A program made the translations under genes and the position numbers. From Pseudomonas sp. KUIN-1 (GTDB taxonomy: Bacteria; Pseudomonadota; Gammaproteobacteria; Pseudomonadales; Pseudomonadaceae), in NCBI RefSeq assembly GCF_009176725.1, contig NZ_AP020337.1, forward strand, positions 1,860,001 through 1,924,000: a DNA stretch of 64,000 nucleotides. Reading direction: 5' to 3'. The notes under the pieces were generated by a model. The model was given only the letters and a program-made list of their open reading frames with translations. It made no database searches and had not been told where the DNA came from. Position 1 is the first letter of the stretch. The number at the start of each line of letters is the position of its first letter. Shown here piece after piece: positions 1 to 53,206 of this stretch.

Positions 1-2
1 TG

Positions 3-473
3 CTTGAAGTGTCGTACGCATTGGCGGCACTCGCCCTGGGCATGGCGTTCGCGCAGCGCGTACTGGTACGCAAGCTGACGCCAATCATGTCCAACCAGCG
101 GATCATCGTTACAGGTTATGCCTGTTGCCTGCTGGGTTATGGTTTCTATACGGCTGCTGCAAGCGTCTGGCTGACGGTGGTGGGCATGTGTTTCCATGCT
201 GTCGGACTGATCGCCGAGCCGGCATTGCGCAGTGAGCTCTCGCGTCATGCCAGTGCAGGGCATCAGGGCGAGTTGCAGGGCGGGCTGACATCCCTGTTGA
301 GTCTGGTGGGCGGTGTAGCGCCAGTGATTGGCGCCCTGATATTTGCGGGTAACGTTGGCTCAGGCCAGCATGTCCTGTGGCTGGGCGCTCCCTTTCTGGT
401 CAGCCTGTTGATGTACGTGCTGGCGATAGGCTGCATCCAGAGGGGGAGAACTTCAGCCGCCTGTAACGGTTGA
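3..473 (+). CDS. MFS transporter, C-terminal part (5' end outside window)
   Basis: The reading frame is open to the left edge, so only the last ~157 residues are present. They are strongly hydrophobic, with about four to five membrane segments separated by short loops. The loop VRKLTPIMSNQR resembles the basic loops of major facilitator exporters, and a later segment (LLSLVGGVAPVIGALIFAG) is typical of the C-terminal half of TetA/DHA1-type drug:H+ antiporters. It lies in the inner membrane and substrate cannot be told. It ends 20 bp before the convergent GntR gene. Family call is moderately sure; a more specific name would need the N-terminal half. Confidence 0.6.
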   Translation, partial: LEVSYALAALALGMAFAQRVLVRKLTPIMSNQRIIVTGYACCLLGYGFYTAAASVWLTVVGMCFHAVGLIAEPALRSELSRHASAGHQGELQGGLTSLLSLVGGVAPVIGALIFAGNVGSGQHVLWLGAPFLVSLLMYVLAIGCIQRGRTSAACNG

Positions 474-43468: not shown

Positions 43469-45325
43469 CTAAACGATCCGCTGCTCCCGCAACCGCTTGT
43501 ACAGCGTGTTACGGCTGACGCCCAGACGTTTGGCCAGCTGTGAAATATTCCCGCCTGCCGCTTGAAACAATTGGCCGAGGTCTTCGCTCGAGTGAAGGCG
43601 CGTGGCCGACTCCTGAGTCCTGACCGGGGCACGGCATTCCTCATCCGCGTGAGCGTCGAGCAGAAAGTCCTCGGGCAGATGGTCAGTGCCGATCGGCTGT
43701 TCGTCGGCCAGTGCCAGCGCCACCTGAATCACGCTGTTGAGCTGACGCAGGTTGCCCGGCCAGGGGTGATGCTCGAATAATTCAAGCACTTCTCTGGAAA
43801 AGCCCGCGCGCTGGTGAGCATCACGGTGCCGCTCCCAGATTCGCTGGATCAGCGCATGTTTGTCAGTCCGCTCGCGCAGGGGCGGGAGTTCGATGCTCAG
43901 GCCGCTGATCCGATAATAAAGATCCTGGCGAAAAAGGCCCGCCTGGACCTGATCGCGCAGGCCCCGGTTGGTGGCTGAAATCAGCCGTATATCGACCGGA
44001 TACAGCTCGCTGCTGCCCAATGGCTGAACGCAGCGCTCTTGCAGCACACGCAGCAGTCGCGCCTGTACCGGCATCGGCATGTCGCCCACTTCGTCGAGAA
44101 ACAGCGTGCCTTTGTCGGCCTTGCGGATCAGGCCGATGCTGCCTTTCTGGTTGGCCCCGGTGAAGGCGCCTCTTTCATAGCCAAACAGCTCGGCCTCGAC
44201 CAGGTCGGCCGGGATCGCTGCACAGTTGACCGCGATCAGCGGCTGGCTGGCGCGCACACTGGCCTGATGCAGGGCTTTGACAAACACTTCCTTGCCGACC
44301 CCGGTTTCACCATGAATGAGCAGCGGGATGTCTTTTTCCAGCAGCCGTTGGGCCTGACGCACAGCCTTCTCGACTTTCGCATCGCCCAGGCTGATGGCCT
44401 GCAGGTCAAGGTTTCGTGATGGTGCTGCAGGCACCTGCGCAGCCTGGACGCAATGCAGCTTCAATGGTTTGCGAGTCGGGCGTTTGAGCAGGCACTGAAA
44501 GCGATTGTTGCCAAATGCATGCAGCGCAAACGGACGCGCTTCGGTCTCGCTGAGCAGTTGCAGGATCGGACACTTGAACAGCGTCTCGATGCTGGCACCG
44601 GCCGGAGTCGTCCCCAGCAAAGCGTCGGCACGCCGATTGGCGCACAGGATCTGGCCGCTTTCGTCAAAAATCAGCAGGCCAGCCCATTGGCTGTCGAGGT
44701 TGTTAAGACCGGTATTGAAGATCAGCTGGAAGTGGGAATCGCGAAACTGGTCGAGGATCAGGCGGTTTTCCACCGACTGGCTCATCATTTTGACCATGCC
44801 CAGCGTGTGTGAAGGTGGCAGGAAGCTGTCGCTGGACACATCCAGCACGGCGATGATGCGCCTGTCTGCGTCGAAGATCGGTGAGGCCGAACCGGTCATG
44901 AAACGGTTGGCCTTGAGGAAATGCTCGTCCGGTTCAATATGGATGGCCTCTTCGCAGGCCAGCGCCGTGCCGATGGCGTTAGTGCCCGTGCCGCGTTCGT
45001 TCCAGCTGGCACCTGGCATGAAGCCTTGAGCCTGGGACGATTCGACGAAGCGTTGTGCACCCCATGACTTGAGCAACTGACCTTGAGGGTCGGCCAGCAG
45101 AATCAGACAGCTGGAGTTGCTGAGAATGTTTTCGTAGACCGGCAGGACCTCCTGATGGGTGGTCTGTACCAGTCCGTGATGGCGCTCCAGCAGCCTGGAA
45201 ACCTCCGTCCCTGGCAATTGGCCGAATGAGGGGCACGTCTGATGACTGAGGCCGAAGTCCCGGCAGCGGGTCCATGAATCCTGAATGATGATGTCGTGAG
45301 CAAGCGAAGCGCTGGTTTGAGACAT
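43469..45325 (-). CDS. Sigma54-dependent transcriptional activator (AcoR-like, GAF-AAA-Fis)
   Basis: A 618-residue enhancer-binding protein. Residues ~75-200 are a GAF-type sensor (ETNAIGTALACEEAIHIEPDEHFL-like region), and ~200-290 are PAS-like. The AAA+ core has Walker A GETGVGKE near 338, the sigma54-contact loop GAFTGA near 385 (YERGAFTGANQKGSIG), and Walker B GTLFLDEVGDMP. A Fis-type helix-turn-helix ends the protein (ISQLAKRLGVSRNTLYKRL). It is divergent from the glycerol-type ABC importer and separated by a spacer with a -24/-12 promoter and a direct-repeat array, so it very likely activates that importer. The effector could be glycerol or a related polyol; this is inferred. Confidence 0.88.
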   Translation of the reverse strand: MSQTSASLAHDIIIQDSWTRCRDFGLSHQTCPSFGQLPGTEVSRLLERHHGLVQTTHQEVLPVYENILSNSSCLILLADPQGQLLKSWGAQRFVESSQAQGFMPGASWNERGTGTNAIGTALACEEAIHIEPDEHFLKANRFMTGSASPIFDADRRIIAVLDVSSDSFLPPSHTLGMVKMMSQSVENRLILDQFRDSHFQLIFNTGLNNLDSQWAGLLIFDESGQILCANRRADALLGTTPAGASIETLFKCPILQLLSETEARPFALHAFGNNRFQCLLKRPTRKPLKLHCVQAAQVPAAPSRNLDLQAISLGDAKVEKAVRQAQRLLEKDIPLLIHGETGVGKEVFVKALHQASVRASQPLIAVNCAAIPADLVEAELFGYERGAFTGANQKGSIGLIRKADKGTLFLDEVGDMPMPVQARLLRVLQERCVQPLGSSELYPVDIRLISATNRGLRDQVQAGLFRQDLYYRISGLSIELPPLRERTDKHALIQRIWERHRDAHQRAGFSREVLELFEHHPWPGNLRQLNSVIQVALALADEQPIGTDHLPEDFLLDAHADEECRAPVRTQESATRLHSSEDLGQLFQAAGGNISQLAKRLGVSRNTLYKRLREQRIV

Positions 45326-45410
45326 GAGGATGCCTGCGAATGTGACGTATTGTTTTTGTTTTTAGGTCCCGTCGGCGTGACCATCCTTGCCCGCAACGTC
45401 CGTCCAGTGT

Positions 45411-45480
45411 CGTTCAGTTGTGTTCAAAGTCAATGTTCATTTTGTTCAAGTGTTCAGCCTTTTCTGTTCATTATTGTTCA
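45411..45480 (+). promoter_or_regulatory. Array of seven TGTTCA-like direct repeats (probable enhancer/UAS)
   Basis: CGTTCA at 45411 and TGTTCA at 45421, 45434, 45443, 45451, 45465 and 45475 all lie on the same strand, with 8-14 bp steps. The array lies 75-145 bp upstream of the -24/-12 promoter, the normal place for sigma54 activator sites. It also lies 86-155 bp before the divergent regulator's start, so it could serve autoregulation. Confidence 0.65.
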
Positions 45481-45554
45481 GCTGTGAAAGGCGTTTCGTC
45501 CCCTGAATACGGGCGAACGCTCTGTTTCGGGCTTCACCGGCGATCCGCCTGAGC

Positions 45555-45570
45555 TGGCACGAATGTCGCT
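45555..45570 (+). promoter_or_regulatory. Sigma54 (-24/-12) promoter of the ABC importer operon
   Basis: TGGCACGAATGTCGCT fits TGGCACG-N4-TTGCT with one mismatch and has exact GG-N10-GC spacing. Transcription would start about 12 bp downstream, leaving a ~43-nt leader before the first ATPase gene. Confidence 0.8.
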
Positions 45571-45624
45571 ATCTGCAAACAGTCACGCATTCACCCTTAA
45601 GAAAAAAACAACAAAGGGCACGCC

Positions 45625-46719
45625 ATGTCACTCACGCTGGAGCATGTCAGTCGCGCCGTCGATGGTCAGGTCTGGATCGACAACGCTTCCCTGAGCTTTG
45701 AGCCGGGATCATTCAACGTTCTGCTGGGGCGCACCCTGTCCGGCAAAACCAGCCTGATGCGCCTGATGGCCGGGCTGGACAAGCCGGACAGCGGGCGAGT
45801 GCTGATGAACGGAGTCGATGTCACCCATCGTCCGGTTCGCCTGCGCAACGTCTCGATGGTTTATCAGCAGTTCATCAATTACCCGAGCATGACGGTGTTC
45901 GAAAACATCGCTTCGCCGCTGCGTCAGGCGGGTCTTTCCAAAGACGTGATCCACAGCCGGGTGCAGGAAACCGCGAAGATGCTGCGCATCGAAAAATTCC
46001 TGCAACGCCACCCCCTCGAACTATCCGGCGGGCAGCAGCAGCGCACCGCGATGGCCAGGGCGCTGGTCAAGGACGCCGAACTGATCCTCTTCGACGAACC
46101 GTTGGTCAACCTCGATTACAAGCTGCGCGAAGAGCTGCGCCAGGAAATGCGCGAGCTGTTTGCCGCTCGCCATACCATCGCCATATACGCCACCACCGAG
46201 CCCAATGAAGCGCTGGCGCTGGGCGGCACCACCACCATCCTGCATGAGGGGCGGGTGGTGCAGAGCGGCAAGACCCCCGAGGTCTATCATCGACCTGCGA
46301 CTGTGCTGGCCGCCGAGCTGTTCTCCGAACCGCCGATCAACCTCATGCCGGGCCGTATAGAAGGCAATGAAGTCAGCTTCGCCAACTTCGTGCATTTCCC
46401 GCTCAACGTCGACCTGCGGGCCGTCGGCGATGGCGAGTATCGTTTCGGCGTGCGCCCCAGCCATTTGAGCCTGGTGCCGTCCAACGATGACGACCTGGAA
46501 CTGGCGGTTACTGTCGAACTGGCGGAAATCAGCGGCTCGGAAACCTTCCTGCATGTGCGCAACGAGCTGTTCTCGCTGGTCCTGCATCTGCCAGGCGTGC
46601 ATGCCTATGACGTCGATGCGGCGATTCGGGTGTACATCCCGACCCACAAATTGTTTGTATTCGATCAGCAGGGCGGCATGATTCAGGCGCCGGGCCTGCG
46701 TATGGCGAGGGTTGCCTGA
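45625..46719 (+). CDS. glpS: ABC importer ATPase subunit, glycerol type (GlpS-like)
   Basis: A 364-residue ATP-binding protein of the CUT1/MalK type. The P-loop is unusual, GRTLSGKT (35-42). The signature LSGGQQQR (133-140) and Walker B LILFDEPLVNLD are canonical, but the H-loop histidine is missing (YATTEPNE near 188-195 where VTHDQ is expected). A TOBE/MalK-like regulatory domain follows from ~240. The pair with the next gene mirrors the rhizobial glycerol importer GlpS/GlpT. The stop overlaps the next start by one base (TGATG). It works on the cytoplasmic side and pairs with the next ATPase. Confidence 0.82.
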   Translation: MSLTLEHVSRAVDGQVWIDNASLSFEPGSFNVLLGRTLSGKTSLMRLMAGLDKPDSGRVLMNGVDVTHRPVRLRNVSMVYQQFINYPSMTVFENIASPLRQAGLSKDVIHSRVQETAKMLRIEKFLQRHPLELSGGQQQRTAMARALVKDAELILFDEPLVNLDYKLREELRQEMRELFAARHTIAIYATTEPNEALALGGTTTILHEGRVVQSGKTPEVYHRPATVLAAELFSEPPINLMPGRIEGNEVSFANFVHFPLNVDLRAVGDGEYRFGVRPSHLSLVPSNDDDLELAVTVELAEISGSETFLHVRNELFSLVLHLPGVHAYDVDAAIRVYIPTHKLFVFDQQGGMIQAPGLRMARVA

Positions 46720-47826
46720 TGGCCGAGATCCGCTTGCAGAACCTTGCGCACAGCTACAGTACCAAGCCTGGTCCTGACGACTATGCAATTCGCGAGATGA
46801 GCCACGTCTGGGAGCAGGGTGGTGCTTACGCGCTGCTCGGGCCTTCCGGGTGTGGCAAGTCAACCCTGCTCAACATCATTTCCGGTCTGCTCAGTCCGTC
46901 GCAGGGCCAGGTGCTGTTCGACTCGAAAGTCGTCAATGAGCTGCCCCCGGAACGCCGTAACATCGCTCAGGTTTTCCAGTTTCCGGTGATCTACGACACC
47001 ATGACCGTGTTCGACAATCTGGCCTTTCCGCTGCGCAATCAGGGCATGGACGAGGCACGGATTCTCATCAAGGTCAACGAAATTGCCGATGTCCTGGACC
47101 TGCAGCCGCTGCTGAAAAAGAAGGCGCGCAACCTCAGCGCGGACGAAAAGCAGAAAGTCTCCATGGGTCGCGGGCTGGTGCGCGATGACGTGTCGGCGAT
47201 CCTCTTCGACGAACCGCTGACCGTTATCGATCCGCACCTGAAGTGGAAACTGCGGCGCAAGCTCAAGCAGATCCACGAGCAGTTCAATATCACCATGGTT
47301 TACGTCACCCACGATCAACTGGAGGCGTCGACCTTCGCCGACAAGATCGCGGTGATGTATGGCGGACAGATCGTCCAGTTCGGCACGCCGCGGGAACTGT
47401 TCGAAAAGCCGTCGCACACTTTTGTCGGCTATTTCATCGGCAGCCCGGGGATGAATCTGATTGACGTCACGCCGCAGCCGGGCGGTGTCGGTTTTGCCGA
47501 TATTCACTTGCCGCTGCCTGAGTCGTTGCAGCAAAAACTGGCCAATACGCCGTGGAAAACTCTGAAAGTGGGTATTCGTCCGGAGTTCGTGCATGTCTGG
47601 GACGGGCCTTACGACGATGCGATGTGTGCCGACGTGACCTATGTGGAAGACCTCGGCACCTACAAGATCATCACCCTGAAACTGGCCGGACAACTGCTGA
47701 AGGTGCGTCTGCAGGAGGACAAACCGGTGCCGCAAGGCCAGGCCTGGATCAGCTTTCCGGGGCAATGGCTGATGCTCTATGCAGATGATTACCTGCTCGA
47801 AGCCGGCCCTGCCAGTGAGGTGTCCC

Positions 47827-47834
<8 letters not shown>
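46719..47834 (+). CDS. glpT: ABC importer ATPase subunit, glycerol type (GlpT-like)
   Basis: A 371-residue ATPase, partner of the previous subunit. Walker A GPSGCGKST (41-49) and the H-loop His in VYVTHDQLEAS (~198) are canonical. The signature motif is degenerate, LSADEKQ (139-145) instead of LSGGQ. A TOBE-type C-terminal domain follows. In a heterodimer its intact nucleotide site would face the LSGGQ of the first subunit, giving one good and one degenerate ATP site. The 3' end overlaps the first permease by 8 bp. The name follows the rhizobial glycerol operon glpSTPQUV and not the glycerol-3-phosphate antiporter GlpT of E. coli. Confidence 0.82.
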
Positions 47835-48693
<859 letters not shown>

Positions 48694-48703
48694 GGGGCTG
48701 TTC

Positions 48704-49504
<801 letters not shown>

Positions 49505-49516
49505 GGAGTCGAAAAA

Positions 49517-49789
49517 ATGGAGTGGATGTCCTGGACACTGCCCACTGCGGCGTTCTTCATCAGTATCGGGTTGTTGCTGGTGGGTATGACGGTATGGGAA
49601 TTGCGCTCGGCGAGCATCGAGCGTCGCGGTTTTCTGCCGATTGCCACCACGCGTGGCGACCGTCTTTTCATCGGGCTTCTGGGCAGCGCTTATCTGCATC
49701 TGCTGGTGATCGGCGCGACGGACTGGAGCATCTGGATCGCTTCGGGGGCTTCCCTGGTGTGGCTGTTGGTGGTGATGCGTTGGGGGTAG
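49517..49789 (+). CDS. glpU: DUF2160 small membrane protein (GlpU-like)
   Basis: A 90-residue protein with three hydrophobic segments (PTAAFFISIGLLLVGMTVW, FIGLLGSAYLHLLVIGA, IASGASLVWLLVVM) starting after GAGGAG. DUF2160 proteins are found almost only between the permease and solute-binding genes of glycerol-type ABC operons, as here. This is strong support for the substrate call of the whole operon. Its role in transport is unknown. Confidence 0.82.
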   Translation: MEWMSWTLPTAAFFISIGLLLVGMTVWELRSASIERRGFLPIATTRGDRLFIGLLGSAYLHLLVIGATDWSIWIASGASLVWLLVVMRWG

Positions 49790-49873
49790 AGAGCGGCCGG
49801 GCGTGGCTGCCGGGGTGATCCGGTCGGCAGTATTGAAAAAGCGGGACTACATGAAAGCAACCTGGAGATGACT

Positions 49874-51646
49874 ATGTTCAATAAGAAAAACAAGCTGCAA
49901 CATAGCGTGACGCTGGCAACCATGATCATGCTCAGCGGGTTGAGTGTGTCGGCATGGGCGGATCAGTACGAAGATGCGGCGAAGAAGTGGGCGGCGAGCG
50001 AGTTCAAGCCGAGCACGCTCTCTGATGCCGAGCAGTTGAAAGAGCTGGAGTGGTTCATCGAAGCGGCCAAGCCGTTTCGTGGCATGGACATCAAGGTGGT
50101 GTCGGAAACCCTGACCACCCATGAATACGAGTCCAAGACCCTGGCCAAGGCGTTCACCGAAATCACCGGTATCAAAGTCACCCATGACTTGCTGCAGGAA
50201 GGTGATGTCATCGAGAAGCTGCAGACCGCCATGCAGTCTGACAAAAGCATCTACGACGGCTGGGTCAACGACTCGGACCTGATCGGTACGCACTTCCGCT
50301 ACGGCAAGGCCCTGTCTCTGACGGATCTGATGGCCAGTCCGGAAGGCAGTAAAGTCACCTCGCCGACGCTGGACCTGAAAGACTTCATTGGCACTTCGTT
50401 TACCACTGCTCCAGACGGCAAGCTTTACCAGCTGCCTGATCAGCAGTTCGCCAACCTGTACTGGTTCCGTGCCGACTGGTTCGAGCGTCCTGATCTGAAA
50501 AAGAAATTCAAGGACAAATACGGTTACGAGCTGGGTGTTCCGGTCAACTGGTCGGCTTATGAAGACATCGCCAAATTCTTCAGCGAAGACGTCAAGGAGA
50601 TCGACGGCAAGAAAGTCTTCGGGCACATGGACTATGGCAAGAAAGACCCGTCACTGGGCTGGCGTTTCACCGATGCCTGGTTCTCCATGGCGGGCAGCGG
50701 CGACAAGGGTTTGCCTAACGGTCTGCCGGTGGACGAGTGGGGCATCCGCGTCGAGGATTGCCATCCGGTCGGTTCCAGTATTACCCGCGGTGGCGACACC
50801 AACGGCCCGGCGGCAGTGTTCGCCACGCAGAAATACATCGACTGGCTGAAAGCCTATGCGCCGCCGGAAGCGGCGGGCATGACCTTCTCCGAATCCGGGC
50901 CGGTGCCTTCGCAGGGTAACGTCGCGCAACAGATCTTCTGGTACACCGCCTTTACCGCCGACATGACCAAGCCGGGTCTGCCTGTCATGAACGCCGATGG
51001 CACGCCGAAATGGCGCATGGCACCGTCGCCAAAAGGCCCTTACTGGAAAGAAGGCATGAAGCTCGGCTATCAGGACGTGGGTTCGTGGACCTTCCTGAAG
51101 TCGTCTGACGAGAAAAAGCGTCTGGCGGCGTGGCTGTATGCGCAATTCGTGACTTCGAAGAGCGTTTCACTGAAGAAAACCATCGTCGGCCTGACGCCGA
51201 TTCGCGAGTCGGACATCAACTCCAAGGAAATGACCGCGCTGGCGCCGAAGCTGGGTGGTCTGGTGGAGTTCTATCGCAGCCCGGCCCGCGTGCAATGGTC
51301 GCCTACCGGCACCAACGTGCCTGACTATCCGAAGCTGGCACAGCTGTGGTGGAGCCATGTGGCCGAGGCGGTCACTGGCGAGAAGACTGCGCAGGAGGCC
51401 CTCGACGGTCTGGCCAAGGACCAGGATGCGATCATGATGCGCATCCAGCGTTCTGAGGTGCAGGAACCCAGCAAATGTGCACCGAAGATGAATAAGGAAA
51501 CCACTGCGGAAGTCTGGTACAAGAAGGCCGAAGAGAGCAACGGCGAGTTCCTCGCGCCACAGCGCAAGCTGGCCAACGAGAAACCCAAGGGTGAAACCAT
51601 CGCCTATGCGGACTTGCTGAAAAGCTGGGAAGCAGCCAGGAAGTAA
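49874..51646 (+). CDS. glpV: Periplasmic solute-binding protein, glycerol type (GlpV-like)
   Basis: A 590-residue extracellular solute-binding protein, much longer than the usual 400-430 of CUT1 binders, as known for the rhizobial glycerol-binding GlpV group. The signal peptide is MFNKKNKLQHSVTLATMIML, with cleavage after VSAWA. The start at 49874 is chosen because GGAG lies 6 bp upstream; the ATG at 49868 abuts that GGAG. Body motifs include GMDIKVVSETLTTHEYESKTL and LAKAFTEITGIKV near the N-terminus. A ~200-residue C-terminal extension ends EPSKCAPKMNKETTAEVWYK, with a lone Cys. It is the last gene of the operon, ahead of a bidirectional terminator. Confidence 0.85.
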   Translation: MFNKKNKLQHSVTLATMIMLSGLSVSAWADQYEDAAKKWAASEFKPSTLSDAEQLKELEWFIEAAKPFRGMDIKVVSETLTTHEYESKTLAKAFTEITGIKVTHDLLQEGDVIEKLQTAMQSDKSIYDGWVNDSDLIGTHFRYGKALSLTDLMASPEGSKVTSPTLDLKDFIGTSFTTAPDGKLYQLPDQQFANLYWFRADWFERPDLKKKFKDKYGYELGVPVNWSAYEDIAKFFSEDVKEIDGKKVFGHMDYGKKDPSLGWRFTDAWFSMAGSGDKGLPNGLPVDEWGIRVEDCHPVGSSITRGGDTNGPAAVFATQKYIDWLKAYAPPEAAGMTFSESGPVPSQGNVAQQIFWYTAFTADMTKPGLPVMNADGTPKWRMAPSPKGPYWKEGMKLGYQDVGSWTFLKSSDEKKRLAAWLYAQFVTSKSVSLKKTIVGLTPIRESDINSKEMTALAPKLGGLVEFYRSPARVQWSPTGTNVPDYPKLAQLWWSHVAEAVTGEKTAQEALDGLAKDQDAIMMRIQRSEVQEPSKCAPKMNKETTAEVWYKKAEESNGEFLAPQRKLANEKPKGETIAYADLLKSWEAARK

Positions 51647-52861: not shown

Positions 52862-52938
52862 GTGCCCGTAGCTCAGCTGGATAGAGCATCCGCCTTCTAA
52901 GCGGATGGTCGCAGGTTCGAGTCCTGCCGGGTGCGCCA
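52862..52938 (+). tRNA. tRNA-Arg (anticodon TCT)
   Basis: A 77-nt cloverleaf with CCA encoded. Anticodon loop CTTCTAA gives TCT. D-arm GCTCAGCTGGATAGAGC and T-arm CAGGTTCGAGTCCTG are canonical. The acceptor stem GTGCCCG/CGGGTGC has two G-U pairs. Confidence 0.95.
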
Positions 52939-52989
52939 TTCAAGGCAGCTTTGGCACAGCAAGTAAGTTGCATCGTCACGCGCAATATG

Positions 52990-53065
52990 GTGGGCGTAGC
53001 TCAGTTGGTAGAGCACAGGATTGTGACTCCTGCGGTCGTGGGTTCGAACCCCATCGTCCACCCCA
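52990..53065 (+). tRNA. tRNA-His (anticodon GTG)
   Basis: A 76-nt cloverleaf with CCA encoded. Anticodon loop TTGTGAC gives GTG, with D-arm GCTCAGTTGGTAGAGC and T-arm GTGGGTTCGAACCCCAT. The leading G typical of tRNA-His is present. Confidence 0.96.
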
Positions 53066-53076
53066 TATTAAGAAGG

Positions 53077-53105
53077 GCGCCAGATTCATAGTCTGGCGCC
53101 TTTGC
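53077..53105 (+). terminator. Hairpin between tRNA-His and tRNA-Leu
   Basis: GGCGCCAGA-TTCATAG-TCTGGCGCC then TTTGCTTT. A strong stem with a broken T run; it may be a partial terminator or a processing site in the tRNA precursor. Confidence 0.6.
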
Positions 53106-53121
53106 TTTAAAAGTCTGAAAT

Positions 53122-53206
53122 GCGGATGTGGTGGAATTGGTAGACACACTGGATTTAGGTTCCAGCGCCGCAAGGTGTGAGAGTTCGAGTCTCTCCGTCC
53201 GCACCA
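53122..53206 (+). tRNA. tRNA-Leu (anticodon TAG)
   Basis: An 85-nt class II tRNA with a long variable arm (CGCCGCAAGGTGTG) and CCA encoded. Anticodon loop TTTAGGT gives TAG. T-arm is GAGAGTTCGAGTCTCTC. Confidence 0.95.

Follow-up and report, generated by a model that had tools for sequence, protein, structure and literature searches.

Why should the 299-bp spacer between two divergent transcription units carry one short hexamer again and again, always in the same direction, upstream of a sigma54-type promoter? The spacer lies in the window, that is, the whole stretch of 64,000 nucleotides of the Pseudomonas sp. KUIN-1 genome analysed here, with a sigma54 activator gene on the minus strand on one side and an ABC transporter operon on the plus strand on the other. 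A preliminary description, made from the letters of the DNA, had reported seven direct hexamers at 8-14 bp steps and had proposed a direct-repeat enhancer bound by an oligomer or by a second regulator. Seven hexamers of common direction do lie within the 70 bp of the array (45411-45480), at start-to-start steps of 10-13-9-8-14-10, but only six are exact TGTTCA (hexamers 2 to 7, plus strand, at 45421-45426, 45434-45439, 45443-45448, 45451-45456, 45465-45470 and 45475-45480), the seventh being CGTTCA with one mismatch (hexamer 1, plus strand, 45411-45416). TGAACA is absent from the 299-bp spacer of the window. When 5000 versions of the spacer were drawn from a first-order Markov model, the best same-strand cluster reached three copies per 80 bp, in 3/5000 versions, against the six observed. 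The array is also the sole site in the 6.03-Mb genome for the pattern TGTTCA-N1-12-TGTTCA-N1-12-TGTTCA, which it matches four times in overlapping fashion; the genome holds no match on the opposite strand and none for the reversed-pattern control.

The promoter, described beforehand as near-perfect with exact GG-N10-GC spacing, bears out that account: the sequence TGGCACGAATGTCGCT (45555-45570, plus strand) is of the TGGCAC-N5-TTGC-like type, with GG at 45556-45557, GC at 45568-45569 and ten bases between, and its TGG lies 80 bp downstream of hexamer 7, start to start. The target operon, all on the plus strand, begins with the gene for a first ABC transporter ATPase (45625-46719) and continues with a second ATPase (46719-47834; open reading frame with a family match), a permease (47779-48693; a mechanically called frame, the true start of which is probably later), a second permease (48704-49504; open reading frame with a family match), a small DUF2160 membrane protein (49517-49789; PF09928, E 5.3e-36) and a solute-binding protein (49868-51646; PF13416), the weak match of which to a trehalose/maltose-binding protein (E 2.6e-4) gives no substrate assignment. 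Presumably, the operon resembles rhizobial glycerol ABC operons, and, from name and gene order, we take PP_2259 and PP_2260-2263 of Pseudomonas putida KT2440 to be the likely orthologues. Passages of a study of that strain give PP_2259 as a putative regulator of PP_2260-2263 and report that, under nitrogen limitation, these genes rise 9.75- to 39.87-fold in the wild type and still 6.29- to 8.01-fold in an rpoN mutant, which would argue against a strict dependence on sigma54, provided that PP_2259 is the orthologue (PMC7801951). Downstream of the sigma54 promoter and ahead of the ATPase start, the window (45599-45616) and its orthologues have an A-rich stretch that is partly conserved, namely in columns +44 and +47 to +50 of the promoter-centred profile. 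We assume that this stretch could be a Crc/Hfq-type target. A CA motif is reported for PP_2264 in the excerpts available of another study (PMC12533007). An Rfam scan of positions 45000-46000 returned nothing at the gathering threshold. Farther downstream, at 52862-53206, three clustered tRNA genes follow the operon: Arg(tct), His(gtg) and Leu(tag).

The divergent gene (43469-45325, minus strand) encodes an AcoR/DhaR-type sigma54 activator of 618 aa. Its translation contains the GAFTGA motif and matches the Pfam families Sigma54_activat (PF00158, E 1.4e-64) and HTH_8 (PF02954); the protein thus combines the AAA+ sigma54 interaction domain, the GAFTGA motif and the C-terminal Fis-type helix-turn-helix (HTH) of bacterial enhancer-binding proteins, and the best Foldseek matches of its AF2 model are the AAA+ domains of sigma54 activators. 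Residues 13-266 match the DhaR structure 4lrx (E 2.9e-8), as in an AcoR/DhaR-type sensor. The GAF family is absent among the 25 Pfam matches listed for the protein, PAS_4 appears only below its cut-off, and the cut-off for DhaR proper (NF008485) is missed, with 275.7 bits against 551. Among the best 80 of 590 places, from which records very near the window were possibly excluded, the nearest named relative of the activator, at 95% identity, comes from Pseudomonas cerasi, a member of the P. syringae group.

Conservation of the hexamers in orthologous spacers of other Pseudomonas had been suggested as a check on the array. Our sample of the genus comprised 199 genomes, the source genome included, and in 142 of them the matches listed include one to the activator of at least 56% identity, which is the sense in which we use the word orthologue. 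Four of the 142 matches are partial (in G125, G034, G052 and G161) and three have an internal TGA (G057, G103 and G072); two loci at contig edges (G035 and G167) were left out and 140 analysed. Three paralogues of about 40% identity (L112-L114) are excluded from the 140, and the class-wide homologues (L115-L143, full-length matches no more than 40% identical) lie outside the set; the protein alignment omits L225, which has a stop within its translation. The check came out in favour of the array, which is conserved: between the activator gene and the ABC operon, at least three same-direction copies of TGTTCA and a sigma54-type promoter are present in 140/140 loci, and an ABC ATPase follows in all of them. 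Counted from the activator start to the promoter, exact copies number three in one locus, four in 26, five in 38, six in 68, seven in six and nine in one, a few of the extra copies in the 7- and 9-copy loci lying outside the array proper.

The arrangement is largely fixed as well. The commonest string of steps, 10-22-8-14-10, is found in 58/140 loci, and the additional copy of the window, at offset 23, divides the 22-bp step. In a column profile built from 91 canonically spaced loci, conservation within the six canonical hexamers ranges from 1.23 to 2.00 bits per column; hexamer 1 falls in a conserved column block, hexamers 4 and 6 are invariant, and hexamer 3 is a variable copy that is weak in most of the 91. 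Most gap columns stay below 0.9 bits, the exceptions being columns 61-62 (0.93-1.26 bits) and the promoter-like blocks WWGTCAA and AGTGT. At the best-scoring promoter site of the 140 loci, TGGCA is invariant and is followed mostly by TCGC, sometimes by TGGC, rather than by TTGC; GG-N10-GC is found in 140/140, a count to be read with the fact that the site scoring itself favours GG and GC. In one locus (L056, about 585-662), a tandem duplication of 8 bp has doubled a hexamer unit and the steps read 10-22-8-8-14-10, perhaps through a recent change of the array. Among the 140 loci, the array lies between 36 and 272 bp from the activator start, and in five of them (L047, L059, L068, L071 and L097) the additional length upstream of the activator start includes a AGCAAGCCCGCTCCCAC-like sequence, which, we presume, resembles Pseudomonas REP elements.

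The array is linked to the activator. A core of four hexamers, searched with up to two mismatches, occurs in 151/298 genomes, none of which has more than one match; within the genus it is found in 97 of the 142 genomes with an activator orthologue and in none of the 57 without a listed match of at least 56% identity (Fisher p 5.6e-22, phylogeny ignored). Outside Pseudomonas, three loci of Stutzerimonas and one of Neptunomonas combine hexamers, activator and the same ABC genes; the Neptunomonas activator is 46% identical in the alignment, and its locus has the hexamers, but our promoter scan matched no sigma54 site there. Among the best 80 of 590 places, relatives of 36-42% identity have neither a TGTTCA array nor a match to the ABC ATPases in the 2500 bases upstream. 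Several methylotroph loci contain one to three copies of TGAACA or TGTTCA. Four methylotroph relatives, with activators of about 40% identity (L227, L228, L229 and L240), have palindromes such as TTCTGACACAGTCAGAA, CTGTCACGTGACAG and TAGCACTTGTGCTA upstream of a TGGCAC-type promoter; possibly, these are the relatives' own activator sites.

The distance between array and promoter proved to be quantised. In the 94 of 140 loci that have canonical spacing and were used for the spacer test, the last hexamer stands 59-60, 70-71, 80, 82-83 or 90-92 bp from the promoter TGG. Length changes were mapped on a quick tree from the first 700 bases of the ATPase gene, by a parsimony reconstruction that is one among several possible, so that the counts of events are approximate. 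The 13 spacer changes of at least 4 bp measure 10, 10, 10, 11, 11, 12, 13, 20, 21, 21, 21, 23 and 31 bp; their best period is 10.6 bp, with a score of 0.82 that was unmatched in 20,000 draws of either null. Measured from the central hexamer in all 140 loci, where the distance anchor was found by matching TGTTCA plus GTCAA, 28 events give a best period of 10.7 bp with a score of 0.78 (0.76 at 10.5). At a period of 10.5 bp, the control distances score 0.00 for the leader (to the activator start) and 0.09 for the UTR (promoter to ATPase), and at any period they reach at best 0.12 and 0.23, respectively. Exceptions to the phasing, which is of the kind described for Vibrio qrr loops, are few: among the 28 events, changes of 7 bp (L078) and 8 bp (the duplication inside the array of L056) are out of phase, and one lineage has 82-83 bp spacers, 2-3 bp off the 80 class. 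Phasing inside the array itself is at most suggestive (p 0.08-0.17). Matches to the exact IHF consensus occur in 30/140 loops, about 0.4 being expected from Markov controls, and matches with at most one mismatch in 80/140, against 7.4 in the controls; the loop of the window has no match with at most one mismatch. Quantisation in steps of about one helical turn supports the view that the repeats belong to the sigma54 promoter.

At its other end, the array overlaps a second conserved element, a point absent from the preliminary description. Two blocks, WWGTCAA following hexamer 2 and AGTGT preceding hexamer 1, form on the minus strand a -35/-10-like pair 16 bp apart. In the window, the predicted -35 element is TTGACT (45428-45433, minus strand) and the predicted sigma70-type -10 element, across the 16-bp spacer, is GACACT (45406-45411, minus strand). 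The -10 box reads AACACT or GACACT in 116/140 loci, and its positions 2, 4 and 6 do not vary among the 91 canonical loci; the -35 box reads TTGACA or TTGACT in 140/140, a figure affected by the choice of the distance anchor, which was made partly on that block. The conserved pair looks like the activator gene's own sigma70-type promoter. Both hexamers 1 and 2 are located within the predicted promoter, hexamer 1 sharing one base with the -10 box, so their occupation should repress the activator gene; the overlap of the two predicted elements thus suggests autorepression through the array. TTGAC is found also upstream of some of the methylotroph relatives, and part of the WWGTCAA block could therefore be an operator instead.

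The manner in which an activator would hold such an array is less evident. Across the 140 loci, 756 copies of TGTTCA, from activator start to promoter, stand against 42 of TGAACA in the whole spacer, and to this extent the label of direct-repeat enhancer holds; a purely direct array does not, because TGAACA and YGAA half-sites also occur. Ten base pairs past the last hexamer lies a partly conserved YGAA, represented in the window by a weak inverted half-site (45485-45490, minus strand; plus-strand letters TGAAAG) that makes TGTTCA-N4-TGAA with hexamer 7 and has GAA columns of 1.05-1.20 bits. Two distant loci (L110 and L111) have TGAACA as their second hexamer, TGAACA stands on one or both sides of the array in the three Stutzerimonas loci looked at, and TG--CA is common to both hexamers. 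These half-sites speak for a strong rival to direct binding, namely that the hexamers are the strong halves of conventional Fis-type dimer sites, TGTTCA-N4-TGAACA (TGT-N10-ACA), in which the partner half is degenerate and the appearance of direct repetition superficial; we regard this as quite possible, if short of probable. Counts of pairs do not separate the lineages cleanly: direct pairs are enriched 2.10-fold and inverted pairs 1.72-fold in the array clade (24/140 loci, every sixth), compared with 0.96- and 1.35-fold among non-array relatives (14 loci passing the promoter filter). The excess of TGTTCA over TGAACA, however, is not what dimer sites lead one to expect, and a partly conserved inverted partner accompanies the last hexamer alone, hexamers 4 and 5 having no conserved TGAAC-like partner at +10, so that palindromes in the style of NtrC or NifA sites are not found. 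The protein, too, may depart from the conventional dimer: the first helix of the DNA-binding domain has 7 residues in the model of the activator and 15 in that of its relative L245, a comparison of single models with pTM 0.48 and 0.49, and the Fis-family profile matches the window protein only from position 15. In five array-clade proteins the HTH_8 match begins at profile position 15, 7, 15, 16 and 17, and in five others at 7, 1, 2, 1 and 1, two sets that overlap. Judging from the models, head-to-tail binding by separate HTH units is possible. Its full version, in which an activator lineage with a shortened dimer helix binds some six half-sites, spaced by roughly a helical turn in a largely fixed array, and the DNA templates the AAA+ hexamer with one subunit per half-site in place of three dimers on palindromes, is offered tentatively and with considerable doubt.

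Other explanations dispense with the divergent activator or with selection. A second, unlinked regulator might occupy the hexamers while the activator works from another site; families such as the AraC-type regulators typically use direct repeats spaced by about a helical turn, and the tie between activator and array comes from sequence comparison. We consider this unlikely, given that the four-hexamer core is missing from all 57 sampled genomes without an activator orthologue, that no other comparably conserved block was seen in the stretch that runs from 30 bp ahead of the array start to 110 bp beyond it or within 60 bp on either side of the promoter, and that the triple cluster recurs nowhere else in the genome. 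Hence, of the two binders first proposed, the comparison fits an oligomer of the adjacent activator and offers no positive indication that a second regulator is involved. Slippage between repeats, instead of selection on the loop, could produce length changes within the array, for instance, the 22-bp deletion between hexamers that accounts for 10-22-10 arrays, but as the source of the helical spacing it is improbable, more so than a second regulator: the 13 spacer-only events of at least 4 bp lie outside the array and are still quantised, and an 11-bp indel distinguishes L007 from L008 within non-repeat spacer. A chance cluster or neutral simple repeat, for which the A+T-rich composition of the stretch (38% GC) could be invoked, is scarcely credible in view of the Markov controls, the uniqueness of the array in its genome and its presence in 140/140 loci. 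Both slippage and chance are accordingly set aside as unlikely.

The array is thus probably a helix-phased enhancer, or upstream activator sequence, of the divergent AcoR/DhaR-type activator. The distribution of the core, in 97/142 genomes with an orthologue and in 0/57 without, fits binding by an oligomer of that neighbour, and we infer from the conserved sequence that the activator binds the hexamers, loops the DNA, activates the operon and represses its own gene. Several HTH domains of the oligomer would each grip one TGTTCA half-site, and a loop of roughly 60-90 bp would carry the AAA+ ring to sigma54-RNA polymerase at the promoter of the ABC operon, aided in some species by a bend at an IHF-like site. 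With a loop so short and stiff, the lengths that survive would mainly be those at which array and promoter lie on corresponding faces of the helix. At the opposite end, occupation of hexamers 1 and 2 would mask the spacer of the activator gene's predicted promoter and reach its -10 box, leading to repression.

Parts of this design have precedents. NorR sites are inverted repeats, unlike this array, and BmoR is AcoR-like. Closest in layout, to judge from passages of the reports, is Nla28 of Myxococcus xanthus, a sigma54 activator with clusters of three to five direct or tandem half-sites upstream of sigma54 promoters, its own gene's promoter among the targets; the half-site is an imperfect 8-bp CT[C/G]CG[C/G]AG, tandem means up to 25 bp apart, and binding was tested by EMSA (PMC9765219, PMC7910581). 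Its spacing is loose, whereas here the hexamer is nearly invariant, the spacing largely fixed and the binding predicted. In the same genus, excerpts on GcsR of Pseudomonas aeruginosa describe three tandem sites upstream of a sigma54 promoter and adjoining the regulator gene, but each site is 18 bp with two palindromic arms and the regulator is TyrR-like (PMC4894688). The Vibrio qrr promoters, as presented in parts of one study, have loops of about 80 to 120 bp that cluster in steps of ~11 bp, based on 61 qrr enhancers with tandem LuxO sites (PMC4740811); by contrast, our comparison concerns one orthologous locus, next to an AcoR/DhaR-type activator gene, in 140 genomes, with changes mapped on a tree and the flanking distances serving as controls. 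The three-site enhancer of NorR, where several sites are needed for proper oligomerisation of the AAA+ protein, is likewise similar (cited in passages of PMC8899819). BmoR at PBMO is another sigma54 activator with a looping promoter, but it has a single putative site, an inverted repeat that precedes the core boxes by 193 bp, along with an IHF-like stretch, and deletion of the repeat kept the wild-type level of activation, according to the portions available (PMC8899819). So far as these excerpts go, both activator sites in direct repeat, as for Nla28, and sigma54 loops phased with the helix, as at Vibrio qrr, are already known. The titles, abstract openings and passages searched hold no description of the present array, and their mentions of PP_2259, PP_2260, PP_2261, PP_2263 and PP_2264 concern expression, deletion and proteome contexts. 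The nearly invariant hexamer array, the tree-mapped phasing with its controls, the overlap with a predicted promoter and the shortened helix of the model were not found described.

If the proposed reading is correct, the 140 examined versions of one sigma54 control region would amount to a natural experiment on enhancer geometry, in which the length of the loop has been altered repeatedly, nearly always by approximately whole helical turns, and sites have been lost and gained while the promoter was retained. The locus would offer a compact system for studying the assembly of an AAA+ activator on direct rather than inverted sites. It would also predict a target sequence, together with autorepression, for the little-studied regulator of a transporter that, going by the name of its genes and by the passages available on P. 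putida, is induced there by nitrogen limitation.
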